Origin: Acidobacteria bacterium 28-1
Lineage (GTDB): Bacteria > Acidobacteriota > Blastocatellia > Pyrinomonadales > Pyrinomonadaceae
Reading direction: 5' to 3'
Assembly (NCBI GenBank): GCA_002050365.1
Contig: MWYZ01000036.1
Coordinates: 1-64,000 of the forward strand
DNA: 64,000 bases
Shown: one piece after another, positions 18,179-36,787 of the stretch
Layout of the letters: each line of letters opens with the position of its first letter
Numbering within the stretch: position 1 is the first letter of the stretch
Notes under the pieces: generated by a model
What the model was told of the DNA's origin: nothing
The model's database searches: none
What the model saw: only the letters and a program-made list of their open reading frames with translations
Position numbers and translations under genes: made by a program

Positions 18179-19126
18179 CTACGCCAATAAATCAAAAGCG
18201 AGTCGCGCCGCGCCCAATATTCCGGCATCGTCTCCTAATTCGCCACGCACTATTTTCGCTCGGACGGATGAACCTCCATAAGCTCTTCGGCGGATTGTTT
18301 CCTGCATTTGAGGCATAAATAATTTCCATCCTGCGCTTGCTCCGCCGCCGACTACAACGATTTCAGGATTTAGAACGTTTAATAAACTGGTCAGCGCAAC
18401 ACCGAGATAGAACCCCATTTGCCGGAAGACTTCCAACGCCAACTCGTCCCCGTTTGTTCCGGCTTGAAATACTTCAAAAGCCTTTAATTGTGCGTTATTC
18501 TTTAACGCCGATTCAGGATATTGCGCCTCCAATTCTTTAGCTATCCGAACAATCGCCGATGCTGAGGAGTATTGTTCAACGCAGCCACACGAACCGCAAC
18601 GGCAGGGCACACCGAATGCTTCAACGCAAAGATGTCCGATTTCTCCAGCCCTTCCGCCGGCTCCGCGCAAAACTTTTCCGTCAATAATAATTCCGCCTCC
18701 GACGCCCGTGCCAAGCGTCACGTAAATTGAATTTTTACATCCTTTTGACACGCCGAGCCAATTTTCCCCGACTGCCGCCACATTAGCATCGTTTTCGAGA
18801 ACCGCTTTGATTCCGAGTTTATTTTCAAGTGCGGCGACCATTCTGAAATCATTCAAAGCAGCTAAGTTTGGAGCCGTTATAATTATGCCGTCACTGACGT
18901 TAACGGTTCCGGGAACAGCGGTGGAGATTGCCTTAACTTGAAAACCGTCGCAGTTTTCCCGACATTCATTTGCGGATTCGACAATTGCCTCGACAATTTC
19001 GTCCGCACATTCGCCGCGAGGAGTTTCACGTCTGGTGCGATACAAAATCGTCCCTTGACAATCAATTGCCGCCATTCGCAAATTCGTTCCGCCCAAATCG
19101 GCAGCTAAAACAATTTCTCTATTCAT
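18179..19126 (-). CDS. ROK family sugar kinase (glucokinase-like)
   Basis: LAADLGGTNLRMA, GTGVGGGIIIDGKVLRGAGGRAGEIGHL, CRCGSCGCVEQYSS. Confidence 0.92.
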   Translation of the reverse strand: MNREIVLAADLGGTNLRMAAIDCQGTILYRTRRETPRGECADEIVEAIVESANECRENCDGFQVKAISTAVPGTVNVSDGIIITAPNLAALNDFRMVAALENKLGIKAVLENDANVAAVGENWLGVSKGCKNSIYVTLGTGVGGGIIIDGKVLRGAGGRAGEIGHLCVEAFGVPCRCGSCGCVEQYSSASAIVRIAKELEAQYPESALKNNAQLKAFEVFQAGTNGDELALEVFRQMGFYLGVALTSLLNVLNPEIVVVGGGASAGWKLFMPQMQETIRRRAYGGSSVRAKIVRGELGDDAGILGAARLAFDLLA

Positions 19127-19165: not shown

Positions 19166-22100
19166 CTAATTCTTCCAAAGCGCGATAAAAGCATCAGCCA
19201 GGCGATCGCGCCAGCTAGTCCAATTATGTCCGGTGAATTCTTCGCGGTAAGTGACAGGAAAGCCTTTGCCGCGCAGCATGACATTGACGCGGCGGCTGTC
19301 ATCAACGCCTTCAAATGTTCCGTCGTCAAAATAAAACCGGAATTTTATTTTGCTTACATCGAGTTTCGATAATTCTTTTATAACTCGTTCACTATCAACC
19401 CAAAACGAAGAACTTTGTCCGCCAATACGCCCAAACGTTTCAGGATACTTTAGCCCAACCCATATGCTTGTAATTCCGCCCAAAGATGCGCCGAGCAAAG
19501 CACGTCCTTCACGATTTTTGATTGTGTTGTATTTTGCATCAATCGCCGGAACAACTTCTGTCGCCAGAAATTTGGCGTAATCGTCGCTTGCCCAATATTC
19601 TTTCGTGCGGTCTTTATAATCAACAAAAACCATTATAAAAGGTTTAGTTTTTCCGGCTTTGACGAGATTTTCCTGAATTTGGATGGCTTTTGCACGATTG
19701 ATGTAATCGGTTCCATCTTGAAGGTAAAGCGTCGGTAAAAATACTTCCTCGTTTGAATTTATAAGCGGTTGATAAATTTTCACCGTGCGTTTTCCGTAAA
19801 TTTTGCCGTAAATTTCAATTTCTTCAATTTTTGCAGAAGAAAGTTTATCTTCCTTATCCCAAATCGTCGGCTGATAGTCGGGCATCGTGAAAAACGAATT
19901 TTCACTGCCAACGCCGTTGTCGAGTTTACTCGGATTCATCGGGTCGGGAATCCAGTTTCCGTCAATGATGAATTTGTATTCGACTCGCGCTGTTGCGGGA
20001 AATTCCATCACTGCCGCTTTCAAATTTTCTCCAACATCCTGCAAAACCGCGCCGCGAGGCTGCCATCCGGTAAAATCTCCGGCAAGCTGCGCTCGTTTTG
20101 CCGCGCCTCGATAAATAAAGATTGCTTTACCGCCTTCAATTAAGGGACTTTGTTTAGAGTTTTTGACTTTCTCGATGATTTCCGCCGACAGTTTTTTTTC
20201 TTTTTTTAACGCGCCGCCGATTTTGTTTGGCGAGATAAAGGTCGCGCCGTCTGGCGTTTGAATTGCTAAATAGCCGACGGTTTCGCTTACAGGCATTTTC
20301 ATCGTGAAAGAAAATTCGCCATTCGCACTCACTTTAACGCTTTGGCGTTGGTCGTCCAACACGGCGGCGATTATCGAATTCGGCGCGGCTTGTCCCTTGA
20401 CCGTGAAAACTTCTCCGGCTTTCAATGTCGCCAAAGTGTTCGGGTCGGGCGACGAGATATTAAAACCAGTTTGTCCGGGAATACCGTTTCTAACGTAACG
20501 ATTGTAAACAACATCGGGCGTGTCGAGATTTCTGACTTCTTGCAGATTTACTGCTAATCGAATAAATTGCGCCATTGACCACGCAAGCGGAGTTGCCGAG
20601 CCTGTGCCTTCACCGAATTTAAGTTCGGGAATAAATTGTTTGTCTATATTTTTCGGCGTTTCGGCTTTGTCCCAAACTTGTTCGGGAATCATCAAACCTT
20701 CGTTGGAAAAGTTGAGCATTGCGTCAAGACGTTTTTTGGCACTAATATAAAATCCACCTTGAGCGTCTTTAGTTTGAATTTTTTGAGTTTTAATATCTTC
20801 AATAGGATTTAATTTATTCAATGCCAAATGCGCCGCTAATTCATATTGCCCGCGTTCACCCGAGAGCAAAGCCCAAAGCCTTCCTTTTCCGGTATATTTT
20901 CCGTCCCAATTCCAACGCCGTCCGTCGTCCATTTCGCCGTAGCCGTCGTTGTTGTAACGATAAAACGCTTCACCGTTCGGTGTATTGACTTTGATTTTCT
21001 CGTCAATAATTTTGAGAGATTTGACGATTAACGGGTCGTCGGGCGATTTAATTCCCAAACGCACAAGTTCCAAAAATCCCGCGTCAACAATTTCATTTTC
21101 GAGAAAAGTTCCCGCGCCGTTGTTGAGAACGGTTTTTTCATTCGCGTCCGGCGTTCCGTTTTCAGTCAGGCGCAGATAATAATTTCCGTCGCCGTATTTT
21201 CCGGTTGTCGTCGCCGTCCAGCGGTCAACATTTCGCGTCCAATCATCGGCGGTGGCAAGATAAATTGTTGCCGATGCTTCGTCGCCATTTTTCTTGGCAA
21301 TATCCGCCGCGCAAACAAGTCCCGCAATTTCTGCCGCTATCGTCGAAGGCGAATAACCCGACTTTTCTTCCCAACGCTCCTGCACGGTTTTCGGTCCGGT
21401 TTTGACGAGAAAATCGGCAGCTTTTTTCACGTGATTTTCATAAGTTTGTTTGTCGAATCTTTTCAATTGGTAAGCCATAATCAACGGGTAAGCGACTTCA
21501 TCAAGTTGGAGTGAACCCCAGCCGCGTTTGCCGTCGAGCCAGGAATTTTGCGGAAAACTGCCGTCCGGTTTTTGCTGAATATTAAAGAGAAAATCGAGTG
21601 CGCGATTTGCCGCTGCCGTGTCGCCCAAAGCCATATATGCCGTGACAACTTGATATAAATCCCGCGACCAAACCAGATGATAACCGCCGCCGACATCTTC
21701 ATTGGCATTCACGCCGCCGCCCCACGGTATTGTGAGACTTGCCACATTCGCGCCGCGCACGGTTTTGTCTTCCTGCGCCTTCAAAACCATCGCTGCCATA
21801 TTAAATTGCGCTTGATATTTCGGCTCGACTTTTGGAATAGTTTTAATGTAATCGCTCCAGCCTTTTTCGTACTCCTGATTATTTTTACCAAAACCCTTTT
21901 GAACCGAAATCGTCGCTGTTTGCAGTGCTTCTTCCGGCGTTTTACCGAATCCCAAACTCAATTGAAAAAGTTCGTGATTGTTTAATAAAAACTTTGAGTT
22001 TATATGAGCGAGTTGAATGACATTTCCGTTTTCGGCACGTGGAAATTGATTGGTAATTTTTCCGTCACGTTTTAACTGTTCGATGCCGTCGCTCGTTCCC

Positions 22101-22711
22101 AAAAAACCGTTTGTCATTTCGCTGAATTCGCACGAATCGCTTTTACAGACGAGAGCAGATGCCTTGTCGCGATCTGATGAAAGGAAAGCCTTTTCAAGTG
22201 TCCAAGCCGTGTCGTGCATTCCGGTGTTGTTCAAAGACGGGTCGTAATAAACATAAAGTTGAAGGTCTGCTATTCTCGGCGTGAATGCCACACTAATTAA
22301 AATAGAATTATGTGCGGGGTCAATTGTATAGCTTTTTTGGATTTCCCACGCGCGGCTTTTGGCTATGTTGATTTGATGAAAACTCAGAGAATCATTTCGT
22401 GAAACTCTGATTTGATGACTCGCGTCGTCGCGTTCGGTTTCAACCGTTTTCCTTTTCGGATTCACAACGACAAACTGCAAAAGATGAACATTCGCCGTCG
22501 TTACATCAGGATAATAAACTTCCGTCATCGCGCCGCCTTGCAGCGTGAACCAGACTTTTGATTCGAGACTCGCGGAAGTTCCGATGGCTTGTTTGCCCGC
22601 GCTCGCCCATTGCGCGTCTTTGCCGGGCGCACCGGGCGCGAGCGTTTGAGCGTTGCTCAAACAAGTAAAAAGTAAAAAGTAAAAAGGCAAAAACGGAAAG
22701 TTTTTTTTCAT
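19166..22711 (-). CDS. Multidomain secreted glycoside hydrolase: GH15 glucoamylase + CBM48/E-set + Fes-type esterase
   Basis: GH15 region (KVWFTLQGGAMTEVYYPDV...WSRDLYQVVTAYMALGD...), CBM48-like (AQLAGDFTGWQPRG...EYKFIIDGNWIPDPMNP), then GRALLGASLGGITSIWVGLKYPE. Confidence 0.88.
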   Translation of the reverse strand: MKKNFPFLPFYFLLFTCLSNAQTLAPGAPGKDAQWASAGKQAIGTSASLESKVWFTLQGGAMTEVYYPDVTTANVHLLQFVVVNPKRKTVETERDDASHQIRVSRNDSLSFHQINIAKSRAWEIQKSYTIDPAHNSILISVAFTPRIADLQLYVYYDPSLNNTGMHDTAWTLEKAFLSSDRDKASALVCKSDSCEFSEMTNGFLGTSDGIEQLKRDGKITNQFPRAENGNVIQLAHINSKFLLNNHELFQLSLGFGKTPEEALQTATISVQKGFGKNNQEYEKGWSDYIKTIPKVEPKYQAQFNMAAMVLKAQEDKTVRGANVASLTIPWGGGVNANEDVGGGYHLVWSRDLYQVVTAYMALGDTAAANRALDFLFNIQQKPDGSFPQNSWLDGKRGWGSLQLDEVAYPLIMAYQLKRFDKQTYENHVKKAADFLVKTGPKTVQERWEEKSGYSPSTIAAEIAGLVCAADIAKKNGDEASATIYLATADDWTRNVDRWTATTTGKYGDGNYYLRLTENGTPDANEKTVLNNGAGTFLENEIVDAGFLELVRLGIKSPDDPLIVKSLKIIDEKIKVNTPNGEAFYRYNNDGYGEMDDGRRWNWDGKYTGKGRLWALLSGERGQYELAAHLALNKLNPIEDIKTQKIQTKDAQGGFYISAKKRLDAMLNFSNEGLMIPEQVWDKAETPKNIDKQFIPELKFGEGTGSATPLAWSMAQFIRLAVNLQEVRNLDTPDVVYNRYVRNGIPGQTGFNISSPDPNTLATLKAGEVFTVKGQAAPNSIIAAVLDDQRQSVKVSANGEFSFTMKMPVSETVGYLAIQTPDGATFISPNKIGGALKKEKKLSAEIIEKVKNSKQSPLIEGGKAIFIYRGAAKRAQLAGDFTGWQPRGAVLQDVGENLKAAVMEFPATARVEYKFIIDGNWIPDPMNPSKLDNGVGSENSFFTMPDYQPTIWDKEDKLSSAKIEEIEIYGKIYGKRTVKIYQPLINSNEEVFLPTLYLQDGTDYINRAKAIQIQENLVKAGKTKPFIMVFVDYKDRTKEYWASDDYAKFLATEVVPAIDAKYNTIKNREGRALLGASLGGITSIWVGLKYPETFGRIGGQSSSFWVDSERVIKELSKLDVSKIKFRFYFDDGTFEGVDDSRRVNVMLRGKGFPVTYREEFTGHNWTSWRDRLADAFIALWKN

Positions 22712-22729: not shown

Positions 22730-24163
22730 TTATTTTTTCTTAAAAATTCTGAATCCGAACGCTTCCAAGCTAATCGTCGGCAAAGCGGCTTTCGCCTGTG
22801 ATTTCGCTTTCATCTTATCGTCGTCCGGCGGCAAAGGCGCGCCGACGTTCGGCGTGATTTCGTCGTAATTTCCTGAAAGCTCGACCGCGCCGAAAAACGG
22901 TTGATTCGAGAAATTTATCGCTACCAGAATTTCTTCATTTCCGCTTTTGCGCGTGAAAGTCAAAACTTTGGTTTCATCGGAATTTTTCAGCCAAGTTAAA
23001 TCACCACGCCGAAGTGCCGCCGAATTTCTGCGGAGCGCAATCATCTGCTCATAAAAGCGCGGAAATTCGGGACGGCGTTCGGCGATTTGCCAGAAAATCG
23101 GCATTTTTTCAAACAATGCGGGCGCGCCTGATTCGGTCGTGTCGCCCGCTTCCATTCCGTTATAAAACATCGGCACGCCGTCGAGCGTGAAAACTAAAGC
23201 CTGCGCCGCGAGCGCAGCTTTTTCGCCGAAACGCGCAATCGCGCGGCGTTCGTCGTGGTTATCGGAAAAACGCATTCGGAGTGCGGCTTTCGGCATTTTT
23301 GCCTTGTCCGCTTCCCAAACTCGGCGAATTTCCGACGCGGGAACATTGCCCTGCAAAACATTCATCATCGCCGAATGATTTGCCCACGAATAATCTAAAT
23401 CAAACGCTTTGACGAGCAAATCGGGCGATTCCCATTCCGCCAGCCAAATCGTATTCGGCTTGATTTTATCTACTTCCGTCCGCGCCGCTTCCCAAAAATC
23501 GGTCGGTATAAATCCGGCGACGTCACAGCGAAAACCGTCCAAATCATATTCGCTCACCCAGGACTTGAGCATCTCAATCATATATTTGCGGAGTTCGGCA
23601 TTGTCGTAATTCAAGTCGGCAACATCCTTCCAATCAGCGACGGGCGGAATGATGTTGCCAGTTTTGTCCTGCGTGTAAAACGCTTTATTTTTCATCATCA
23701 CGCTGTCCCAAGCCGTATGGTTGGCAACCATATCAATAATGACTTTCATTTCGCGTTTATGCGCTTCGGCAATTAATTTCTGCAAATCTGCTTTCGTGCC
23801 GTAATCAGAATTTATAGCGTAATAATCTTTGACAGCGTAAGGCGAGCCGATGGTGCCTTTCGATTTTTCCTTGCCAATCGGGTGAATCGGCATCAGCCAC
23901 AAAACCGTTACGCCGAGATTTTTCAATCTGTCCAAATCACTTGTAATCGAATTAAAATCGCCCTTTTGCGAATATTGCCGCGGGTAAATTTCATAAATCA
24001 CCGCGTCTTTCACCCATTCCTGCGACATTCGCGCATTTTCTTTCGAGAAGTCGCGCGTCGGTTGCTGTGATTTAATGACGGATGAAAAACTCGTCAGCAA
24101 AAGCAGAACGACGATATTACTAATGAAAAATTTATACAAAGTTTTGTGTTTCATAATTTTCAC
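22730..24163 (-). CDS. Alpha-amylase family glycosyl hydrolase (GH13), secreted
   Basis: AVIYEIYPRQYS, VIIDMVANHTAWDS, LDGFRCDVAGFIP, FSDNHDE. Confidence 0.93.
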   Translation of the reverse strand: MKIMKHKTLYKFFISNIVVLLLLTSFSSVIKSQQPTRDFSKENARMSQEWVKDAVIYEIYPRQYSQKGDFNSITSDLDRLKNLGVTVLWLMPIHPIGKEKSKGTIGSPYAVKDYYAINSDYGTKADLQKLIAEAHKREMKVIIDMVANHTAWDSVMMKNKAFYTQDKTGNIIPPVADWKDVADLNYDNAELRKYMIEMLKSWVSEYDLDGFRCDVAGFIPTDFWEAARTEVDKIKPNTIWLAEWESPDLLVKAFDLDYSWANHSAMMNVLQGNVPASEIRRVWEADKAKMPKAALRMRFSDNHDERRAIARFGEKAALAAQALVFTLDGVPMFYNGMEAGDTTESGAPALFEKMPIFWQIAERRPEFPRFYEQMIALRRNSAALRRGDLTWLKNSDETKVLTFTRKSGNEEILVAINFSNQPFFGAVELSGNYDEITPNVGAPLPPDDDKMKAKSQAKAALPTISLEAFGFRIFKKK

Positions 24164-24177
24164 CTTTATAGATTTTC

Positions 24178-25533
24178 TTACTGCTCAGTTCCGGCAACGG
24201 CACTCGCGCTCGGCACGGTAGTGTCAATGTTTGCCGCGCCGACATCTTTGACAATCAACACGCTGAATGCTGCAAGGAGCATTACGAAACCGCCGAGCAG
24301 CACGACGTTGAGCGGGTCTTTGCCGAGAATGTTTTCGTAGATTTGCGGCACAATCAGGGACATCACAATCTGCGGTAGAACGATGAATAAGTTGAAAACG
24401 CCCATATAAACGCCCATCCGCGAAGGTTTTATAGCACCGGCTAAAATGACATACGGCATTGAAAGAATCGAAGCCCAGGCGATGCCGACTCCCGCCATAC
24501 CGACCCACAAAAAATACTTGTCCTGCGCGTAATACGTCGAAAGCAAGCCCAAACCGCCGAGAGCCAAACAAATAAAATGCGTCGTTTTGCGGTTGGTCGC
24601 TTTAGCAAATGGCGGAATCAAAAAAGCGACGAGAAAACAGCCGACGTTATAAACCGCAAAGGAAAGTCCGCCCCATTCGGTTCCGGCGGCGAACAGCGGC
24701 GATTTTTCGTCGGGCGCGAGAAAAATGTGACGCGCCACCGCCAAACCATAAAACTGCCACATACACGGCAAGGCAAACCAGGTGAAAAACTGCACGACGG
24801 CGAGCTGCTTCATCGTCGTCGGCATATCTTTTAGGGCATCCCAAATCTCTTTGAAAATATGACTGACGACATTTTCTTGCGATTGTTTGCGCCGAAATTC
24901 TTCGATGTCTTCGGGCGGATATTCTTTCGTGCTGACGACCGTCCACAAAACCGCGACAAGAAAAGCCGCTGCTCCAATAATAAAAGCGTAAAGCGTCGCG
25001 TTCGGAATGCCGCTCGCCATCACGCCCGTCACGCCGAGAGTTGCCAGAATAAACGGTGCGGCGTTCGCCAGAGTTTGTCCGATGCCGATGAAAAACGACT
25101 GCATCACGAAACCGGTCGTGCGCTGTTCTTCTGGCAATTTATCACCGACGAACGCGCGAAATGGTTCCATACTTGTATTGATGCTTGCATCCAAAATCCA
25201 CAAAAGGCTCGCCGCCATCCAGAGTGCTGATGAAAACGGCATCAGAAGAAGACAAATGCTCGACAAAATTGCGCCAACCAAAAAATAAGGGCGGCGGCGA
25301 CCGAGCCGATTCCAGGTTCGGTCGCTCATCGCGCCGATAACCGGCTGAATCAGCAAACCCGTAATCGGTCCAGCCAGCCATAAATACGGCAAACTGCTTT
25401 CTTCCGCGCCCAGATATTTATAAATCGGCGACATATTTGCCTGCTGCAAGCCGAATCCAATCTGAATTCCCATAAAGCCGAAGCTCATATTCCAGATTTG
25501 CCAAAAACTCAAACGCGGTTTGGTGTTCATCAA
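24178..25533 (-). CDS. MFS/GPH-type sugar (maltose/maltodextrin) transporter
   Basis: SFGFMGIQIGFGLQQANMSPIYKYLGA..., GPITGLLIQPVIGAMSDRTWNRLGRRRPYF; multiple TM segments. Confidence 0.88.
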   Translation of the reverse strand: MMNTKPRLSFWQIWNMSFGFMGIQIGFGLQQANMSPIYKYLGAEESSLPYLWLAGPITGLLIQPVIGAMSDRTWNRLGRRRPYFLVGAILSSICLLLMPFSSALWMAASLLWILDASINTSMEPFRAFVGDKLPEEQRTTGFVMQSFFIGIGQTLANAAPFILATLGVTGVMASGIPNATLYAFIIGAAAFLVAVLWTVVSTKEYPPEDIEEFRRKQSQENVVSHIFKEIWDALKDMPTTMKQLAVVQFFTWFALPCMWQFYGLAVARHIFLAPDEKSPLFAAGTEWGGLSFAVYNVGCFLVAFLIPPFAKATNRKTTHFICLALGGLGLLSTYYAQDKYFLWVGMAGVGIAWASILSMPYVILAGAIKPSRMGVYMGVFNLFIVLPQIVMSLIVPQIYENILGKDPLNVVLLGGFVMLLAAFSVLIVKDVGAANIDTTVPSASAVAGTEQ

Positions 25534-25548: not shown

Positions 25549-27444
25549 TTATTTGATTGTAAAAATTCCTGCGGTTCGCGCGGGCATTGAAAATTTTATT
25601 TTACCGTTTTCAATTTTTACGTCTTTCACTTTTTCCAAACGGTCGTTTAAAGTCGCATTTCCCGAAAACTGTTTAATCATCGAAACGTCAAACTGCACGT
25701 TAGCCGCATTGGTGTCGTTATTGAAAATCGTCAGGACTGCTTGATTTTCCTTGACGCGCGCGTAAGCCATCTGTTGTTCTTCGTCCAACAAATCAATCGA
25801 TTTTCCGTTTCGCAAAGGCTCAAGCTCACGACGCAGTTTTCCTAAAAGCGCAAGATGATTCCAAACGTCTTTTTCTTCGGCGGTTCTGCCTGAATTCGTA
25901 AAAGCGTTTCGCGTATCGCTGGGAAAGCCGCCGGGAAAATCGCGCCGGTTGTCGGGGTCGCTGCCGCCGCGCATCGCCAGTTCGTCGCCGTAATAAAGAA
26001 GCGGCGTGCCGCGCGAAGTCATAATCAAAGTCTGCGCCATTTTCAAGCCTTCAACCGTCGCGCCTTCTTCGTTCATAAATCGCGGCATATCGTGAACACC
26101 GAGAAATGTCGTCAAGACGCTCGGATTTGGATAAAGCCAATCTTTGGCAAACATCTGAGAAACTTCACGGATATTTTTGCCTTGCGCGAAAGCATTGCGA
26201 ATCGAATAAAAAAGTGCAAAGTCATAGAGCGTATCAATTTGCGTATCAATTCCGTCGTGTCCGCGCCTTCCGGTTTGAAAATACGAAATCAATGCCGGGT
26301 CACCGTCGTAAAGTTCGCCCAGGATGTTTACGTTCGGATATTCGCGTTTTATTGCGCCGCCCCATTTTTGCCAGAACGTGCGCGGAACATGCGGCAAAGT
26401 GTCCATCCGAATCGCGTCGAAGCCGTTCATTTCCAGCCACCAAATCGAATTTTGAATCAGGTATTTTTCAACTTCCGGGTCGTCTTGATTAAAATCAGGC
26501 AGGATGTCTATAAACCATCCGTCAATGTTGCGTTTCTGCGTTTGATAAGTCGCGCGCGGATTCATCGCCGTCCATTTCTGCCAGTTGTTTGAAACGTGAT
26601 TTTCAACCGTTCCATTCCACCAGGTCGGTGTTGGCGGGTCGTTCGCCCAGACGTGATACGGTCCGGTGTGATTCGCCACCTGGTCTTGAATCACTTTCAA
26701 ACCGAGCGCGTGCGCTTTATCAATCAACTCTCGAAGTTTCGCAAACGTGCCGAGATGCTCGTCAACCGCATACATATCAATTGCGCCGTAGCCGTGATAA
26801 CCGGTCGTAGCCGGAACGCCTTCGTAAACTTCCTTTGTATCGAGTTGGTCGTTGTTGTCATAAACCGGCGTTGTCCAAATCGCCGTTACGCCCAAAGATT
26901 TCAAGTAAGGCAATTTATCAATCACGCCTTGAAGGTCGCCGCCGTGATAATGTCGACCTTTCGAGCGGTCGTATAAACCTTTCGACTTCGGTGGATCATT
27001 ATTTGATTGGTCGCCGTCAGCGAATCGGTCGGGCATCAAAAAATAAATCACATCGTCGGGCGTGTAACCCTGAAAACGATTTTGGCGCGGCATCTTTTGG
27101 GAAATTTCAAAAGGCGCGTTGACGAAACCGTTTCTCGTTTCGACCTTAAAGTTATATTTTCCGGCTTTTGTATTCGGCACAATTTCAACATCGAAAAATA
27201 GATAATGTCCATTCTCGCTGTGGCGAAAATTATATGTTTTCAAACCGCTGTTCATTGGTGATAAAACATTTGCGCCGCTTAAATTTTTTCCGCGAATCAG
27301 CACACGAACAGGATTAACCGTCATATTCGCCCACCAATTCGGCGGGTCAATTTTTTCAACTGTCGGCGTTTGCGCATTAGCGGTGAGCGACGAGCAATAG
27401 GCGATAAGTAGTAAAAAAATGAAATAATGCAATTTGTTTTTCAT
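25549..27444 (-). CDS. GH13 cyclomaltodextrinase/neopullulanase-like
   Basis: N-terminal VEKIDPPNWWANMTVNPVRVLIRGKNL, YFLMPDRFADGD, VIQDQVANHTG, FDAIRMDTLPHV. Confidence 0.92.
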   Translation of the reverse strand: MKNKLHYFIFLLLIAYCSSLTANAQTPTVEKIDPPNWWANMTVNPVRVLIRGKNLSGANVLSPMNSGLKTYNFRHSENGHYLFFDVEIVPNTKAGKYNFKVETRNGFVNAPFEISQKMPRQNRFQGYTPDDVIYFLMPDRFADGDQSNNDPPKSKGLYDRSKGRHYHGGDLQGVIDKLPYLKSLGVTAIWTTPVYDNNDQLDTKEVYEGVPATTGYHGYGAIDMYAVDEHLGTFAKLRELIDKAHALGLKVIQDQVANHTGPYHVWANDPPTPTWWNGTVENHVSNNWQKWTAMNPRATYQTQKRNIDGWFIDILPDFNQDDPEVEKYLIQNSIWWLEMNGFDAIRMDTLPHVPRTFWQKWGGAIKREYPNVNILGELYDGDPALISYFQTGRRGHDGIDTQIDTLYDFALFYSIRNAFAQGKNIREVSQMFAKDWLYPNPSVLTTFLGVHDMPRFMNEEGATVEGLKMAQTLIMTSRGTPLLYYGDELAMRGGSDPDNRRDFPGGFPSDTRNAFTNSGRTAEEKDVWNHLALLGKLRRELEPLRNGKSIDLLDEEQQMAYARVKENQAVLTIFNNDTNAANVQFDVSMIKQFSGNATLNDRLEKVKDVKIENGKIKFSMPARTAGIFTIK

Positions 27445-29003
27445 AATTTCTTTTTCGTGTCTTTTCGTGTTTGTTCGTGGCTAACTCTTCCGTAAATCTC
27501 GGTCAAACCGCGCAATCTTTGCTTAATTTCATCGGAAAAATCGCCTTCTCGGCATTGCCAATACCAATTTCCCGAACTCGAGGCGGGCAGATTCATCCGC
27601 GCTTCGTTGCCCAAACCTAACAAATCCTGCATCGGCGCAATCGCTGTGTCCGCTACCGATTCCCAAACGGTCTTGATAAAATCCCAGTGAATTGCTTTGC
27701 CGTCCGACTTTAGATAATCCAGACAAAATTCGCGTTCGCGTTTTATCTGTTTAGCATCGCGCGTTGAACTGCTGCCGGCTTGCGAATTGAACCAGCCGAC
27801 CGTGGTATCGTTGTCATGCGTCCCGGTATAGGCAACACAATTTTTTATATAATTATGCGGCAAATCGTGATTATCCGTGCCGCCGCCGAAAGCAAACTGC
27901 AGAATACGCATTCCGGGAAATCCGAAACCGTCGCGCAATTCTTCCACGTCCGGCGTTATCACGCCCAAATCTTCCGCCCAAAACGGCAAATCGTCCAGCG
28001 CATTTTTCAGCGTCTCAAACAATTTTTTGCCCGGCACATTCACCCAACGCCCGTTCTGCGCCGTCGTGTCGCCGCCCGGCACTTCCCAACTTGCCGCAAA
28101 GCCGCGAAAATGGTCAACGCGCACGATGTCAACCGTTTTCAAAGTTGCCTTTACACGATCAATCCACCAACGAAAATTGTCGCGCTGCATTTGCTCCCAA
28201 TTGTAAATCGGATTGCCCCAAAGCTGACCTGTTTTAGAAAAATAATCGGGCGGAACTCCGGCGACAACCTTCGCCGAACCATCTTCGTCAAGTTTGAACT
28301 GCGACGGATTGCACCAAACGTCCGCTGAATCAAGCGCAACAAAAATTGGAATATCGCCGACGATTTTTATATTTTTCGAGCGGCAGTAATTTTTTAATTC
28401 GTTCCATTGCCGGAAGAAAAGCCATTGCTGAAATTTCTGCGCTTGAACTTCTTCGCGCAAATTTTCTGAGGTTTGCGACAAAGCAGCGGTTTTTCGCAAA
28501 AGCAAACCGGCTTCCCATTTCTGCCAGGATTTCTGGTCTTGCGATTTTTTTATCGCGCGAAACAATGCGTAATCGTCCAACCAAGCGGCTTCCTGCTGGC
28601 AAAAAGTCTCAAATTTCCCGCGCAAATTAACGCTCGTCGTCAGACGAAACCGTTCGTAAGCCTTTGCCAGAATCCAAATTTTCCATTCATAAACTTTTCC
28701 GAAATCAACTCTGCCTTCGGGAAAATTAGGTTTCTGATTCGTTTCCTCTTCGTTCAGAAAACCGTCTTCAACAATTTTCTGCGGCGAAATCAGATTCGTA
28801 TTTCCCGCAAACGCTGAAAAACATTGATACGGCGAATCGCCATAACCGGTCGGACCGAGCGGCAAAACCTGCCAATAAGTTTGCTTGGCAGCTGCCAGAA
28901 AATCTACAAACCAGTAGGCTTCATCGCCCAAATCGCCGATGCCGAATTTACTCGGCAAAGATGTCGGATGCAGTAATATGCCGCTGGCTCTCGGAAAATT
29001 CAT
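27441..29003 (-). CDS. malQ: 4-alpha-glucanotransferase
   Basis: RASGILLHPTSLPSKFGIGDLGDEAYWFVDFLA..., VDIVRVDHFRGFAASWEVPGG, YTGTHDNDT. Confidence 0.95.
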   Translation of the reverse strand: MNFPRASGILLHPTSLPSKFGIGDLGDEAYWFVDFLAAAKQTYWQVLPLGPTGYGDSPYQCFSAFAGNTNLISPQKIVEDGFLNEEETNQKPNFPEGRVDFGKVYEWKIWILAKAYERFRLTTSVNLRGKFETFCQQEAAWLDDYALFRAIKKSQDQKSWQKWEAGLLLRKTAALSQTSENLREEVQAQKFQQWLFFRQWNELKNYCRSKNIKIVGDIPIFVALDSADVWCNPSQFKLDEDGSAKVVAGVPPDYFSKTGQLWGNPIYNWEQMQRDNFRWWIDRVKATLKTVDIVRVDHFRGFAASWEVPGGDTTAQNGRWVNVPGKKLFETLKNALDDLPFWAEDLGVITPDVEELRDGFGFPGMRILQFAFGGGTDNHDLPHNYIKNCVAYTGTHDNDTTVGWFNSQAGSSSTRDAKQIKREREFCLDYLKSDGKAIHWDFIKTVWESVADTAIAPMQDLLGLGNEARMNLPASSSGNWYWQCREGDFSDEIKQRLRGLTEIYGRVSHEQTRKDTKKKL

Positions 29004-29013
29004 AATTAGAAAA

Positions 29014-30900
29014 CTATTTTATAATTTCGTAAGCCACAACACTTTTAGCATTAACGAAAATCCCAAACTCTCCGTTTTTGATGTATGAAACTCCGGCGAT
29101 TCCGATTCTTGGTTCGACTCTTGAGCCGTCAGCAACGCCTATATTTAAGGCTGGTAACATTAAACTTCTTGTTAGTTCGTTTGAATTATTGAAGGCAAGC
29201 ACAAATGTTTCCTGACCAAGTTTCCTCGCAAAAACATAAACATTATTGTCGTAAAATAAGTCAATAGTTTTCCCCTCTTTCAAAGACTTGTTTTCTCGCC
29301 GCAATAAAATCCATCTTTGCGCCCACTCGAACATTTTCTGCTCGTCCGCCGTTCTGCCTTCCTTTGCAAATTTATTGACTGAATCTTCACGCCAACCGCC
29401 GGGAAAATCTTTGCGGTTGTCCGGGTCGTGTCCGCTGGTCATCGCAATTTCTTCGCCGTAATAAAGCTGCGGAATGCCGCGCATCGAAAGTATAAACGCC
29501 GTGTGCAGCATTGCGCCTTCGAGCGTTGCGCCCGGCAGAGACATAAAACGGTCGGTGTCATGGTTGTTTTGCAGAGTCGTGACGCGGTTGATATTCGGAT
29601 AAAGTCCGTCGTATTTCAAAACGTCACGCAAGGCTCGCATCGGTTTCTTGCCGGTGAAAACTTCCTGCGAAGTCTCCCAGAGTTTAAAATCGAAAACGCT
29701 CGGCAGATTTGTGTCAATGTTGTCCCAACCCGTTTTTCCGCCTTGAAAGAAAGCTGTTTGTGCCGAATCGCGCTCGAAAATTTCGCCAACTAAATAAAAC
29801 TTCGGATATTGTTTGAGAATTGCAGTTGACCAATCGCGGATAAATTCGCGCGGCATATATTGAATCGTGTCCTGCCGAATGCCGTCAATACCCGTCATTG
29901 CAATCCACCAGAGCGCGTTTTGAATTTCGTATTTCGCCACTTCCGGCTCGTCCTGATTTATATCCGGCAGTAGTTCGTTGAACCAACCTTTGAGCAAGTT
30001 ATCGCGTTCGGATTGCGAAGCGTTCGGTGAAAGTAGAACTGAGTTATTAAAGGAATTTTGGTCAAACTTGTTGAACCAATTATCCAGCGGCGGATTTTTC
30101 GCCCAAGGATGTTGAATGCCTACATGATTCGCCACTTGGTCTTGAACGACTTTGATACCGTTGCGGTGTGCCGTTTCAACCATCTCGCGCAAATCATGCA
30201 TTGTCCCGAAATGATTTTCCACGCCGTAATAATCAATAGCGTGATAGCCGTGATAATTTGTATTCGGACACCAAGGTTTATCACATTGATTGGCTGCATC
30301 CGGGTTGTCATACCACGGCGTCAGCCAAATCGCCGTAATGCCCAACTCTTTTAAGTATGGAATTTTCTGCGTGATGCCGCGAAAATCGCCGCCGTGCCAG
30401 GCTCGCGGATTCGTGCGGTCAGCGTCTTTATCGTTCGGCATATCGCCGTTGGCAAAACGGTCGGGCATTATTAAATAGATAATGTCGTTATTTGTGATGC
30501 CTTGAAAGTTTGTTTTCGCGTTGAGCGGCGCGGAAATTTCAAAAGGAATCGTCGCCCTCCCGGTTGCCGTCGAAACTTCAAAATCGTATTTCGCGGGCTT
30601 TGTATTTCCGGCGATTGTTACGTCGAAGAAAAGATAATCGCCGCGCCGGTTTATTTTGACGTTGGAAACTTTGAGGAGATTATTTTTTGAAACGATTTTT
30701 GCGCCCTCGAAATTCGCGCCGCGCACGAGTAGGCGAACAGGATTTACCGAATGATTCGCCCACCAACTCGGCGGTTCGACTTTTTCGACTTGCAGCGTTC
30801 GGGTTTGATTTTCGCTAACGTTGTTTTGCGCGTACAGTTCAAAGCCGATGAAATTTATAAGCCCGCTTAGGAAAAAGAAATGAAATATAAATCGCGTCAT
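29014..30900 (-). CDS. GH13 cyclomaltodextrinase/neopullulanase-like (second paralog)
   Basis: VEKVEPPSWWANHSVNPVRLLVRGANF, YLIMPDRFANGD, VVQDQVANHVG, IDGIRQDTIQYMP. Start taken at MTRFIFHFF; the track gives 30996. Confidence 0.9.
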   Translation of the reverse strand: MTRFIFHFFFLSGLINFIGFELYAQNNVSENQTRTLQVEKVEPPSWWANHSVNPVRLLVRGANFEGAKIVSKNNLLKVSNVKINRRGDYLFFDVTIAGNTKPAKYDFEVSTATGRATIPFEISAPLNAKTNFQGITNNDIIYLIMPDRFANGDMPNDKDADRTNPRAWHGGDFRGITQKIPYLKELGITAIWLTPWYDNPDAANQCDKPWCPNTNYHGYHAIDYYGVENHFGTMHDLREMVETAHRNGIKVVQDQVANHVGIQHPWAKNPPLDNWFNKFDQNSFNNSVLLSPNASQSERDNLLKGWFNELLPDINQDEPEVAKYEIQNALWWIAMTGIDGIRQDTIQYMPREFIRDWSTAILKQYPKFYLVGEIFERDSAQTAFFQGGKTGWDNIDTNLPSVFDFKLWETSQEVFTGKKPMRALRDVLKYDGLYPNINRVTTLQNNHDTDRFMSLPGATLEGAMLHTAFILSMRGIPQLYYGEEIAMTSGHDPDNRKDFPGGWREDSVNKFAKEGRTADEQKMFEWAQRWILLRRENKSLKEGKTIDLFYDNNVYVFARKLGQETFVLAFNNSNELTRSLMLPALNIGVADGSRVEPRIGIAGVSYIKNGEFGIFVNAKSVVAYEIIK

Positions 30901-30921
30901 CAACCAATCTCGCTCAAAAAG

Positions 30922-30959
30922 GAAAATAAAAAGGCGTGAGAAACATTGAGTCCCACGCC
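30922..30959 (-). terminator. Terminator-like hairpin after the TonB receptor
   Basis: GGCGTG...CACGCC with T-rich tract (AAAATAAAAA on the + strand) on the minus-strand 3' side. Confidence 0.55.
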
Positions 30960-31010
30960 CTGTAAAAGAACAAGATGCCAATTGCTGGTCTGGCATCTTT
31001 GGTATTCAAT

Positions 31011-34000
31011 TTAGAACTGTAACCGAAGTCCAAATTGAATTTGGCGCGCACTGCGGAACTGTGTTCCTTGGATGCGTCCGAAATTATTGTTGCCGGTATC
31101 GAAATTAGTATCCGGCTGACTTAACTGCGGTGTATTTAAAAGGTTGAAAAACTCAGTTCTGAATTGAATTTTCGCATCTTCAGAAATGCCGAAGTTTTTC
31201 GATACGCCCAAATTGACGACGTAAGTTGAAGGCGAGCGTAGTCCGTTGCGTTCCAGGTTTCCGAAACGTCCCGCCGGAGCCAATCTGAAAGCCGCTCTGT
31301 CCAAGAACTTTTCAGTTGTGCCGCCATACGGGTCACCGACCAAATCCACCCGCACACCGTCGCGGCGAATGTCAAAGGCACTGCCGCTCTGGGCGCGAAA
31401 AATGCCGTTGAGTTGAAATCCACCGATAATCGCGTCGAGAACACGCGGAATGTCCGAACCGAATTGTCTGCCGCGTCCGAACGGAATTTCGTAAATCGAA
31501 CTAAAGACAAATGTGTGCGGATAATCAGAGCGCGAACGGGCATACGGTTCAATAAAATTGATATTCGTATCGCCGACCGAATCAAACGCGCCGTTGCCGT
31601 TGTCTTTCGTTCTTGAATAAGCGTAAGACAAAAGATACTGCCAACCTTGAGCAAAGCGGCGTTCGAGTTGAACTTGCAGCGAATCGTATTGCGATTTGCC
31701 GTTGTCGTCGCGCACGTTGACGCGATTAAGACTGGAAAAACATCTGCCGTTCACCAATGATCGCGGACATCCAACGTTCGTTCCCGGTTCGACAGTGCGT
31801 CCGTTCAAGTTGTAATACAAAGCCAGATTGCGCCCCCGCGTTCCGACATATCCAACGCTGATTGCCGTATCGTTGGTCAATTGCTGTTGAAATTGAACGT
31901 TAAACTGCTGCGTATTGGAAATTTTGTTGTCGGGTAAAACCGCCAACACGTCAATTCCCGAAGGATTGTTTAAGTTGACGCTGCTGATGTCGCCGAGCGG
32001 CAACGCGCCGGTCGCCAATCTGTTGTCGTTGCTTCCGTTCGGAGCGCGTCCCGACAAAGTAATGCGGCAGCCGTCTCGGTAACTGCAAACGCTGAAACCG
32101 CTGAACGGCGCGTTTTGGGCTAATTGATTGTCAATACCGCCGCGGTCGAGGAAATAGAAAATCCCATAACCGCCGCGCAGAACTGATTTGCCTTTGCCGA
32201 AAATATCATAGGCAAAACCGACCCGCGGACTAAAATTGTTTTTATCCGTTTCGGTCAAAGAATCTTTGCCGTCCTTAGCTAAAAGCAAGCGTCCCGTTTG
32301 GATATCAAAATTCGATTGACGACCGTATTCTTCCGTCGGATTGGTAAAATATTCGTAACGCAAACCTAAATTTAAAGTCAATTTGCGGCTGACTCGCCAA
32401 TCGTCTTGACCGAAAAAGCCGTTTTCCCAGGTACGCGTACCGACTGTGCCAAACGGCGGACCGACTTGATAATTACAAACAAAACCGATTAACAAATCGG
32501 CTTGCTCAAACCGCGTCGTTCCTGATGCGGATTCAGGATCGTTATCGTTTCTGCATTGCGTGAAATCGCCGTTTCCATATAAGAAGAAATATCCTTTACC
32601 ACGATTCGGACGGAACAAATCAACCTGTCGGCGCAGAATCGTGCCACCGAATTTGAATGTATGATTGCCCGTCGTGTAACTCATTCCTTCCACCACTTGA
32701 TAGGTGTTTTGCGGAACGCGATACGGACCGAAATCGCCGGTATATTCGAGTTGTCCGTTGTAGCCGCCGATTAACGCGCCGCCGCCTAAGCTCGAATCGC
32801 GGTTGGCATTGACGATGCCGAGATTCTGAGAAACCGGCGTGTCGCCGAACGGCGGTTCATAACCGAATTTGAGACGCGCTGCCTGAATACGAAATTCGTT
32901 AAATAAATTATCGGTCAGCGAACTGTTTAAGCCGACAACGATGGCGCGGTTGCGCGTCGGATTCGTTCCCGAACCGAAACCGGCGGGCAGATTAGGCAAA
33001 CGCGAAGTAACTTCCTGGTCGTAATTGCCGTAACTGATGCGCGTAAAAAGTTGGTTGCGGTCGTTTATGTTGCCGTCAACTCTGACATTGAAAGTATTGT
33101 TGTTTTCGGTTTGATTGCGAAACGCTTCGTAATTATTCTGGGTGCCTGCGCCGGAAATATTCGGCAGCGGAAACGCCCGCAAGTAATTTAATGCCGCTTG
33201 ATTTAAACGTCCGCCCGGTAGTAAATCCAAACGATTATACGGGGTTCCGTTACAAGTAGCGTTGCCGGGAGTATTACAGATGTTTAATCCGGTCAACGGG
33301 TCACGGAGTTGAGTCGTAAGGGCTGAAAAATTTCCGTTGCGGAACTCTGCCGTTGGCACGCTCGCCGTTTCTCGTCCGCGCGGCAAGAATTGGCGCAAAC
33401 CTTCGTAATCAGCGAAAAAGAACACCTTGTCTTTTCCGTTATAAAATGTCGGTCCGCCTTCGCCAAAGCGGGGCAGAAAAATCGGACCGCCAATGGAGCC
33501 GCCGAATTGTCCACGGCGGAAAAGACTCTTTGTCGGGTCAAATGTTTGCCTGGCGTCAAAGACGCTGTTGCGAATAAAAGTAAATGCGCTTCCGTGAAAA
33601 GCATTCGTCCCCGATTTGATAGCGGCGTTGACGATGCCGCCGCCGCCGCGTCCGAATTCGGACGGCGCGACGCTGGTCTGAATACGAAATTCCTGCACCG
33701 AATCGGCAGTCGGAAAAATGTTGATTGTGCCGACGAGTGCTTCATTGTTGTCCACGCCGTCGAGCAAATAATTATTTGACTGCGTGCGCTGACCGTTGAC
33801 GCTGAGTGCCGCGCCGCCGACATTGTTGCCGCGATAAGTTTCGGCATCGCCTCCGACACCGGTTGCAAATCCGCCAACTACGCCTTGCGTTACGCCCGGC
33901 ACTAGACGCGCCAGTTCTATTACATTGCGTCCGTTCAACGGAAGTTCGACAATTTGTCTTCCCTGAATGACTTCGCCGAGTGCCGAACTCGACGAATCTA

Positions 34001-34391
34001 CTAACGGAGTATCGTTTGTAATTGTAACTGTTTCACTGACCGCACCGGTTTCTAACGTAAAATCTAAGGTTGCTGTCTGGGCAACTTCGAGCGTTATCTC
34101 CTGCTTGGTTGTTTTAAAGTTACTTTGGGTTACTGCAATCTGATATTTTCCCGGCTGCAACGTCAGAATCGAATAAGCCCCTTCTCCGTTGGTTTGGGCT
34201 GTAATTTCCCGGTTAGTACCTAAATCAGTCACCGTCAATGTCGCGCTTGGCACTGAGGCTCCCGTCTGGTCGGTGACAGTACCTTGAATTCTCGCCGACT
34301 CGGTCTGCGCCATAGTCGTAAAGACAAAACATAAAACATATATTGCCGTCCACAAAAATCTATATTTCTTCAAACTTTTTAATTTACACAT
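31011..34391 (-). CDS. TonB-dependent receptor with carboxypeptidase-regulatory-like N-terminal domain (Oar-like)
   Basis: ARIQGTVTDQTGASVPSATLTVTDLGTNR, VELPLNGRNVIELARLVPGV plug, C-terminal RQIQFGLRLQF. Confidence 0.93.
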   Translation of the reverse strand: MCKLKSLKKYRFLWTAIYVLCFVFTTMAQTESARIQGTVTDQTGASVPSATLTVTDLGTNREITAQTNGEGAYSILTLQPGKYQIAVTQSNFKTTKQEITLEVAQTATLDFTLETGAVSETVTITNDTPLVDSSSSALGEVIQGRQIVELPLNGRNVIELARLVPGVTQGVVGGFATGVGGDAETYRGNNVGGAALSVNGQRTQSNNYLLDGVDNNEALVGTINIFPTADSVQEFRIQTSVAPSEFGRGGGGIVNAAIKSGTNAFHGSAFTFIRNSVFDARQTFDPTKSLFRRGQFGGSIGGPIFLPRFGEGGPTFYNGKDKVFFFADYEGLRQFLPRGRETASVPTAEFRNGNFSALTTQLRDPLTGLNICNTPGNATCNGTPYNRLDLLPGGRLNQAALNYLRAFPLPNISGAGTQNNYEAFRNQTENNNTFNVRVDGNINDRNQLFTRISYGNYDQEVTSRLPNLPAGFGSGTNPTRNRAIVVGLNSSLTDNLFNEFRIQAARLKFGYEPPFGDTPVSQNLGIVNANRDSSLGGGALIGGYNGQLEYTGDFGPYRVPQNTYQVVEGMSYTTGNHTFKFGGTILRRQVDLFRPNRGKGYFFLYGNGDFTQCRNDNDPESASGTTRFEQADLLIGFVCNYQVGPPFGTVGTRTWENGFFGQDDWRVSRKLTLNLGLRYEYFTNPTEEYGRQSNFDIQTGRLLLAKDGKDSLTETDKNNFSPRVGFAYDIFGKGKSVLRGGYGIFYFLDRGGIDNQLAQNAPFSGFSVCSYRDGCRITLSGRAPNGSNDNRLATGALPLGDISSVNLNNPSGIDVLAVLPDNKISNTQQFNVQFQQQLTNDTAISVGYVGTRGRNLALYYNLNGRTVEPGTNVGCPRSLVNGRCFSSLNRVNVRDDNGKSQYDSLQVQLERRFAQGWQYLLSYAYSRTKDNGNGAFDSVGDTNINFIEPYARSRSDYPHTFVFSSIYEIPFGRGRQFGSDIPRVLDAIIGGFQLNGIFRAQSGSAFDIRRDGVRVDLVGDPYGGTTEKFLDRAAFRLAPAGRFGNLERNGLRSPSTYVVNLGVSKNFGISEDAKIQFRTEFFNLLNTPQLSQPDTNFDTGNNNFGRIQGTQFRSARQIQFGLRLQF

Positions 34392-34513: not shown

Positions 34514-34536
34514 GTTTGTTGTGGAAACAAACAAAG
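34514..34536. promoter_or_regulatory. Candidate ROK operator 1, upstream of the TonB receptor/starch operon
   Basis: GTTTGTTGTGGAAACAAACAAAG; 7-5-7 inverted repeat GTTTGTT/AACAAAC; near-identical to 35852-35874. Confidence 0.7.
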
Positions 34537-34600
34537 TTTTAATATATTTGTAACACTCTTGTCAAGACTTTATCGCAAATTTTTCCAACTTTTTTAAAAT

Positions 34601-35800
34601 TTAATTAGCTGAAGCAAATTTTCGCGCCAAAACAAGGCTCAAAGAACCTTTCAAGGTGGGAAAATCTCCGAGTGAAGAAGCCCTGATAACCGTATGCGGT
34701 AATCCTTGGCGGACGCTTCTTCCCGCTAAAAATTCGATTTCATCTTTTATCAAATCCCAGGCTCTAACTACGCGCCCGCTGACGACGACGGCTTGCGGGC
34801 TAAATCCGATAATCAAGTTTGAGATACCGATACCGATATATTTTGCAGTTTCCTTCAACGCTTCGACGGCTTCCTTTTCACCGTTATTTGCCAAGTTAAT
34901 TAACTGCTCTACGTTTATATCTTCATCGGCGGGCTGACGGTTTTTGATTTGATTTTGGTAACGAGCGACAATTGCTTTTTCCGAAGAATGCGCTTCCCAA
35001 CAATTTCGGCTGCCGCAGGAGCAGAGAGTCGGCGCGTTCTCACCGACTATCATATGACCGAATTCTCCGGCTGCGCCTCTCTCGCCCCGATAAACCTGCC
35101 CGTCGAAAACAATTCCGGTTCCGACTCCCTCGGCGACCAAAACCGTGATAAAATTTTTATCTCGCCGGTTGACTTCATCACCAAACCACAACTCGGCTAA
35201 GGCAATGGCGTTCGCGTCATTATCAATTGTTACCGGAAGACTGGTTTTAGTAGTAATTTGTCTAGAAATTTCCCAGTTACTCCATTGAAAATACGGAATA
35301 TAACGAACTCTCCCGGTCGCTTGATCGGCGACTCCAGGAACGCTGATACCGACTTCAAGATGGTGTTTTTTATTATCAAGAACGTGTTTTTCAACTCCCT
35401 TAATAATTTGCTCTGACATATAATCGGCATCGGGCGAGGTCGGGAAAGTGTTTTCTTTCAAAACCTGTCCTGCCAAATCAGCCAGCGCAATTGTCGTGTA
35501 GCGCGGCGTAATATCTACGCCGATGGCAACCGGGATTCCGGTTCTTAGTTTCAACAAAGTCGGTTTTCTGCCGCCGGTAGAATCGCCCGTGCCGATTTCC
35601 TCAATCAAACCGTCAAGATGTAGATCGTCAACAATTGCCGAAACCGTTGATCTTTGCAACTCAGTTTGGCGGGCAATCTCGGCGCGCGAAATTGGCGCGC
35701 GGTCACGGACATAAGTTAAAACTATCTGTTTATTAATGTCGCGGATTGTGTTGGGACGGGCAATTTGGGCTTTTGCCTTATGCAAATAAATTCTCTTCAT
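34601..35800 (-). CDS. ROK family transcriptional regulator (NagC/XylR-like)
   Basis: N-terminal wHTH RAPISRAEIARQTELQRSTVSAIVDDLHLDGLIEE, then ROK domain with CSCGSRNCWEAHSSE. Confidence 0.93.
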   Translation of the reverse strand: MKRIYLHKAKAQIARPNTIRDINKQIVLTYVRDRAPISRAEIARQTELQRSTVSAIVDDLHLDGLIEEIGTGDSTGGRKPTLLKLRTGIPVAIGVDITPRYTTIALADLAGQVLKENTFPTSPDADYMSEQIIKGVEKHVLDNKKHHLEVGISVPGVADQATGRVRYIPYFQWSNWEISRQITTKTSLPVTIDNDANAIALAELWFGDEVNRRDKNFITVLVAEGVGTGIVFDGQVYRGERGAAGEFGHMIVGENAPTLCSCGSRNCWEAHSSEKAIVARYQNQIKNRQPADEDINVEQLINLANNGEKEAVEALKETAKYIGIGISNLIIGFSPQAVVVSGRVVRAWDLIKDEIEFLAGRSVRQGLPHTVIRASSLGDFPTLKGSLSLVLARKFASAN

Positions 35801-35851
35801 CGGTATAGATATTCTTAGAAAGTTTTAATAATATTAAATATTAAATTCAAA

Positions 35852-35874
35852 GTTTGTTGTGAAAACGAACAAAG
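35852..35874. promoter_or_regulatory. Candidate ROK operator 2, upstream of the ROK regulator gene
   Basis: GTTTGTTGTGAAAACGAACAAAG, 21/23 identical to operator 1. Confidence 0.7.
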
Positions 35875-36184
35875 CTATACATAAACTCTTTTTTAATTTT
35901 TTTCAATAGCAATCATAAACTTTTGTAACAAACTAGAAGACTTTTTACCCTCACGTCTTGGAAGTTCTTATGTTTCAAATGAATAGAACCATAACTTTAT
36001 ACGTGGGGGAACGGGAAAATTATGAGCGTGCCAAGTATGTCGGACTTGCACAAAATCAATCCTACCAGAAGAACATTTCAAAGCAAGATAAACATATGAG
36101 GGCTTGATTTTATCTATCGGCAAAGAGATTTTATCTATACACATTTTTAGCTCATCTTTTTAAACTTTATCGGAGGAAAATCGA

Positions 36185-36787
36185 ATATTCACAAGAGTCT
36201 TTGTCAAGACTGCGTTTCTTTTTCTATTGTTTGCCATGCCTGTTCTCGCGCAAACTAAACTGTTACGCTTTCCCGATGTCTACGGCGACCGCGTGGTTTT
36301 TACTTACGGCAGCGATTTATGGACTACTTCGGCTAACGGCGGACAGGCTGTGCGCTTGACGGCACATCCCGGATTGGAAGTTTTTGCTAAATTTTCACCC
36401 GACAGCAGATGGATTGCCTTCACCGGACAATATGACGGCGACGAACAAGTTTATGTTATGCCTGCAACCGGCGGTGAACCGAAACAACTGACATTTTATC
36501 CGGCGAAAGGACCGCGGGCACCGCGTTGGGGCTACGACAACCAGGTTAAGGGTTGGACAAACGACGGGAAATCAATCGTTTTCCGCTCGCAGCATGATAG
36601 CTGGTCGCTACCGCAGAGCAAACTTTATACAATTGCCGTAACGGGCGGCGCGGCGATTCAGTTGCCGATGCCCGAAACCGGTTCAGGAGATTTTTCATCT
36701 GACGGTACGAAAATGGTTTATTCGCCGAGAACCCGCGATTTTCGCACGGAAAAACGCTATGGCGTGATTGCGGAGAGGCTTATTTAA
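36185..36787 (+). pseudogene. Truncated tricorn-protease N-terminal beta-propeller
   Basis: [70 protein letters not shown]...; ends after ~190 aa; the natural start position is ATA (36185), 8 nt after GGAGG, giving [23 protein letters not shown]. Confidence 0.75.

Follow-up and report, generated by a model that had tools for sequence, protein, structure and literature searches.

A ROK regulator gene with paired putative N9 operators, predicted to control itself and an adjacent alpha-glucan operon in Pyrinomonadaceae

The closest known counterparts of the sites considered here are operators of two ROK-family regulators. The XylR operator of Bacillus subtilis, xylO, is TTAGTTTGTTTGGGCAACAAACTAA, and XylR sites of A. 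bescii were verified in vitro (PMC12034463, PMC12285236); in Streptomyces coelicolor, the RokB site on PnovH is TTTGTTC-N11-GAACAAA (PMC4856308). Other ROK sugar regulons include those of Thermotoga (XylR, TreR, GluR, and BglR) and of Bifidobacterium NagR, in which 10 of 11 operators overlap a −10 or −35 element (PMC3750489, PMC9599254); these respond to other sugars through other motifs, and they serve ABC uptake, in contrast to the TonB uptake seen below. The ROK protein Lmo0178 of Listeria (structures 5f7p/5f7q/5f7r) comes from another phylum as well, and its likeness to the regulator studied here is at the protein level. Lmo0178 is linked to an alpha-glucan pathway. We searched the literature for starch or ROK regulons of Acidobacteriota and found nothing relevant, and no described ROK regulon in Pyrinomonadaceae.

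We analyzed a 64,000-nucleotide stretch (the window) of contig MWYZ01000036.1 from Acidobacteria bacterium 28-1, which contains a ROK regulator gene flanked by two nearly identical 23-bp sites and followed by an eight-gene operon for alpha-glucan uptake and breakdown (Table 1). Its regulator is a member of the ROK repressor family, and the predicted mode of action is that of XylR and RokB. The locus shares with XylR the identical GTTTGTT/AACAAAC half-sites and the local sugar operon (which in A. bescii includes xylR itself), and with RokB the TTTGTT half-site in an inverted repeat that overlaps the start of the controlled unit. The spacing is different in each: counted between GTTTGTT and AACAAAS, it is 5 for XylR (a 10-5-10 palindrome), 9 here, and 13 for RokB, whose own genomic sites are degenerate and whose regulon is different. 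The regulator is only distantly related to XylR (a solved structure under that name, 4ija, matches at 4e-34), and the conserved spacing of N9, not N5, and the alpha-glucan rather than xylose genes also set it apart from an XylR ortholog of a xylose regulon. It is neither NagC nor Mlc: it scores 188 bits against a cut-off of 650 for the NagC equivalog and 148 bits against 530 for the Mlc equivalog (NCBIfam).

Table 1. Predicted features of the ROK/alpha-glucan locus (positions in the window).
Feature	Position	Strand	Basis or remark
ROK-family glucokinase-like sugar kinase	18179..19126	-	PF00480; TIGR00744 3e-72, just under cut-off; DLGGTN loop kept
GH15 glucoamylase with C-terminal putative esterase domain (fusion, 1181 aa)	19166..22711	-	PF09137, PF00723, PF00756
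GH13 alpha-amylase family enzyme	22730..24163	-	PF00128
MFS sugar transporter	24178..25533	-	PF07690; GPH sucrose model below cut-off
GH13 cyclomaltodextrinase-like amylase	25549..27444	-	PF00128, PF09087
GH77 4-alpha-glucanotransferase (MalQ)	27441..29003	-	TIGR00217 above cut-off
GH13 cyclomaltodextrinase-like amylase	29014..30996	-	PF00128, PF09087
Oar-like TonB-dependent outer-membrane receptor (operon begins with this gene)	31011..34391	-	PF25183 9e-209, CarboxypepD_reg
Operator 1 (predicted)	34514..34536	-	perfect STTTGTT-N9-AACAAAS; kept at the same place 3' of ROK orthologs
Operon promoter (predicted)	34537..34565	-	TTGACA (34565-34560)-N17-TTAAAA (34542-34537); abuts operator 1
ROK-family repressor (predicted), 399 aa	34601..35800	-	PF00480 1.6e-61; Lmo0178 (5f7p) 3e-53
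Operator 2 (predicted)	35852..35874	-	perfect N9 site; upstream site kept in most orthologs
ROK promoter (predicted)	35878..35906	-	TTGAAA (35906-35901)-N17-TATGTA (35883-35878); 3 nt before operator 2

The regulator has both hallmarks of a ROK repressor, a helix-turn-helix fused to a ROK domain and a lost DxGGT loop. A winged helix-turn-helix occupies residues of about 17-75 (HTH_24 is found at 21-67, above its cut-off), and the ROK domain (PF00480) covers residues 93-391. Its closest solved relative is Lmo0178 (5f7p), which matches over the full length, including the helix-turn-helix and the wing GGR. In an alignment with glucokinase, the ATP loop is degenerate (GVDITPRY vs. GVDIGGTK), whereas NDAN, EFGH, and CSCGSRNCWE (a CxCGxxxCxE motif) are retained; the loss of the ATP loop with the sugar-site and cysteine motifs kept fits a sugar-sensing repressor, not a kinase. 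Two paralogs of this protein in the same genome, 49% and 36% identical to it, have flanks without such sites.

The genes form a minus-strand tandem. The ROK gene is followed by the operon (34391 to 18179), whose genes are closely spaced, with no gap larger than about 40 nt; the glucokinase-like gene is its probable last member. On the other side of the locus, beside the predicted ROK promoter, a 186-aa open reading frame (36227-36787) ends abruptly and is similar to a larger secreted protein in the N-terminal beta-propeller (PD40) portion only; it is possibly the remnant of a truncated gene.

Site 1 (GTTTGTTGTGGAAACAAACAAAG) and site 2 (GTTTGTTGTGAAAACGAACAAAG) are identical at 21 of 23 positions, as an earlier note on this DNA had reported with the correct positions. 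On the gene strand, site 1 reads CTTTGTT-TGTTTCCAC-AACAAAC, directly 3' of the predicted operon promoter, and site 2 reads CTTTGTT-CGTTTTCAC-AACAAAC, 51 nt 5' of the ROK start codon. With up to three mismatches allowed, the two sites are the sole matches in the window (0.00 in shuffled sequences), and only two further matches (C27:23100 and C49:15947) exist in the 4.15-Mb genome, both of which we regard as coincidences in coding sequence: one lies within a glycosidase gene, and the other straddles the point where an unrelated gene begins. The pair is far beyond chance and non-random.

The note described the sites as a GTTTGTT-N5-AACAAAC palindrome, which holds perfectly for site 1 but not for site 2 (GTTTGTT-N5-AACGAAC). 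With the register set to GTTTGTT-N9-AACAAAG, the arms of the two sites are identical and both differences fall within the N9 spacer. We traced the ROK protein through 119 Pyrinomonadaceae genomes and scored STTTGTT-Nk-AACAAAS palindromes (k = 0 to 15) in the flanks (220 nt upstream, 330 nt downstream) of 35 ROK genes, namely that of the window and orthologs with at least 57% identity, giving 69 usable flanks. Of the 69 flanks, 40 carry a perfect N9 element and 59 carry one with at most one mismatch, in the same places as in the window, although these counts overstate independence since many of the orthologs come from one genus. For N5 the corresponding numbers are 26 and 38, for N13 they are 2 and 14, and the remaining spacings reach at most 1; first-order Markov control sequences gave about 1 even at two mismatches. 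The same operator stands before the regulator and before the adjacent operon, and is kept in relatives, with exceptions (e.g., G070 and G025) in which one or both flanking sites are absent; in G034, the operon that includes ROK has a perfect site at its head instead. The recurrence of the same sites at the same places in many relatives makes them very probably the docking sites of the ROK repressor.

One alternative is that the functional palindrome is nonetheless GTTTGTT-N5-AACAAAC, as in Bacillus XylR, or that two overlapping registers, offset by 4 bp, are in use and the N9 arms play a secondary part. The N5 palindrome is perfect in site 1, more than half of the flanks come within one mismatch of it, and xylO is built from these same arms; in addition, a 1994 paper describes, in its title, the B. 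subtilis xyl operators as tandem, overlapping, and spaced by four base pairs. We nevertheless consider this unlikely, since N9 is conserved in far more flanks and is kept where N5 has two to four mismatches (for example, in L108, L109, L059, L092, and L111 at its upstream site), and since the inner TT that N5 requires carries 0.3-0.6 bits per column compared with 1.4-1.8 bits for the outer TTT. Flank counts and column information favor N9, and the N5 palindrome is a product of the left arm's TTTGTTTG repeat.

Both sites are found next to putative promoters. In most orthologs, a TTGACA-N16/17-TATTAAAA-like stretch running directly into CTTTGTT is kept 5' of the downstream operator; at the upstream site, TTGAWA-N17-TATnnA (TATSAA-like) hexamers stand before the operator in the closest orthologs. 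We inferred both promoters from this conservation, because a strict sigma-70 scan called a promoter at neither site. If they are correct, both N9 operators would cover the transcription start, the position expected for repression; their location near −10/+1 is consistent with repression, short of proof. The ROK protein might instead bind the sites and activate the operon, or act both ways, as proteins of this family can be activators or repressors (PMC9599254). This seems very unlikely: both sites lie at or just 3' of the predicted −10, where a bound protein would block polymerase, and we saw no site at an upstream activator position.

Within the genome of the window (about 91% complete, so that a further site may be missing from the assembly), the two local sites are the only perfect N9 sites; the eight one-mismatch matches all lie inside open reading frames and are fewer than the control count of 16. 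The motif had been put forward as a means of regulon discovery, and here the genome scan adds nothing to the local pair; in relatives, it does lead to unlinked alpha-glucan genes. The 119 genomes contain 71 perfect sites, compared with 20 for the reversed pattern; 53 of them belong to the 34 genomes that encode a close ROK ortholog, and 18 belong to the other 85 genomes. Among the 71 sites, 47 are no more than about 200 nt away from an end of a ROK gene, one is at the head of a ROK-containing operon (in G034), and six are 5' of unlinked TonB or GH13 genes (one each in G065 and G005, two each in G034 and G030); the approximately 17 left over are near background. Two more sites, each with one mismatch, precede a GH13 gene of G030 and its homolog in G070.

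Several of these arrangements serve as natural experiments. G008 lacks the TonB and first GH13 genes, and MalQ directly follows ROK, yet both operators are kept, one before ROK and one before MalQ. In G065, the ROK gene and a TonB-MalQ-GH13-MFS operon are on different contigs, each with a perfect site of its own. In G005, a perfect site is found away from the regulator, 5' of a GH13 gene orthologous to the third one in the window. These arrangements favor a link that acts in trans over the simple inheritance of neighboring DNA; the unlinked GH13 genes of G030 also have perfect sites. As a separate observation, G065 has two N9 operators 32 bp apart 3' of its ROK gene (L223 2983-3037), one perfect and one with one mismatch.

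The half-site also covaries with the regulator. The recognition helix starts with LHRST in six examined orthologs and with LQRST in the others. Half-site position 7 is C in 10 of 22 half-sites of the LHRST group vs. 0 of 96 half-sites of the LQRST group, and positions 8-9 are GG in 13 of 22 vs. 3 of 96, although the counts ignore phylogeny and this covariation may reflect a single event. Such covariation bears on the possibility that another sugar regulator, e.g., a LacI-type protein, binds the sites and that the ROK gene is a mere neighbor. In other bacteria, LacI-type regulators often control alpha-glucan operons. Here, however, we regard such a regulator as very unlikely, given that about two-thirds of the perfect sites adjoin ROK genes, that genomes lacking a close ROK ortholog have few sites, that the half-site follows the ROK recognition helix, and that the same half-site occurs in known ROK operators.

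Taken as sequence evidence, these observations make it highly probable that sites 1 and 2 serve as operators for the ROK repressor, whose gene lies between them and which would control the rok gene and the alpha-glucan operon. The proposal of the earlier note that the ROK protein regulates its own gene and the adjacent operon thereby gains strong support, at the level of prediction, from phylogenetic footprinting, promoter overlap, and the trans-linked sites in relatives. Apart from its register and from a regulon that is smaller in this genome, the note's reading is largely right. In the mechanism we propose, a ROK dimer would use its winged helix-turn-helix to bind STTTGTT-N9-AACAAAS, covering the −10/+1 region of the two promoters. 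Binding to operator 2 would repress its own gene, rok, and binding to operator 1 would repress the alpha-glucan operon, i.e., the genes for the TonB receptor, GH13, GH77, GH13, MFS, GH13, the GH15-esterase fusion, and the ROK glucokinase. A glucose-type sugar derived from starch or maltodextrin would then bind the kinase-like domain, in which the ATP loop has been lost, and release the repressor; from the enzymes of the operon, our guess is that this inducer is glucose or a maltodextrin.

The mechanism itself is familiar, a standard kind of switch. What the locus adds is a proposed operator and regulon for starch use in a family of Acidobacteriota, a little-studied group, with a TonB receptor operon tied to a local ROK switch and with the operator register corrected. 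It also provides natural experiments for ROK specificity, in the N5/N9/N13 spacing and the Q/H recognition helix. One could speculate, with considerable doubt, that ROK repressors across phyla share a common TTTGTT half-site and gain specificity through spacing in 4-bp steps (5, 9, and 13) and through the Q/H switch. If this rule were true, one could predict ROK operators from sequence, and an operator containing TTTG repeats could be read in several overlapping registers.

Some further arrangements were observed in the family. The operator at the head of the ROK-containing operon in G034 is located at a gene for a cytochrome/TPR-like protein (L065 11146-13398), which precedes ROK-MalQ-GH13; in G060 (L188), an operator is likewise found at a gene whose protein has an N-terminus similar to that of the G034 protein. 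ROK genes, many of them paralogs of the one in the window, are followed by genes for Oar-like TonB receptors at L089 (6210-10706), L075, L080, L081, L087, and L206, which suggests that ROK-TonB modules are a general arrangement in Pyrinomonadaceae.
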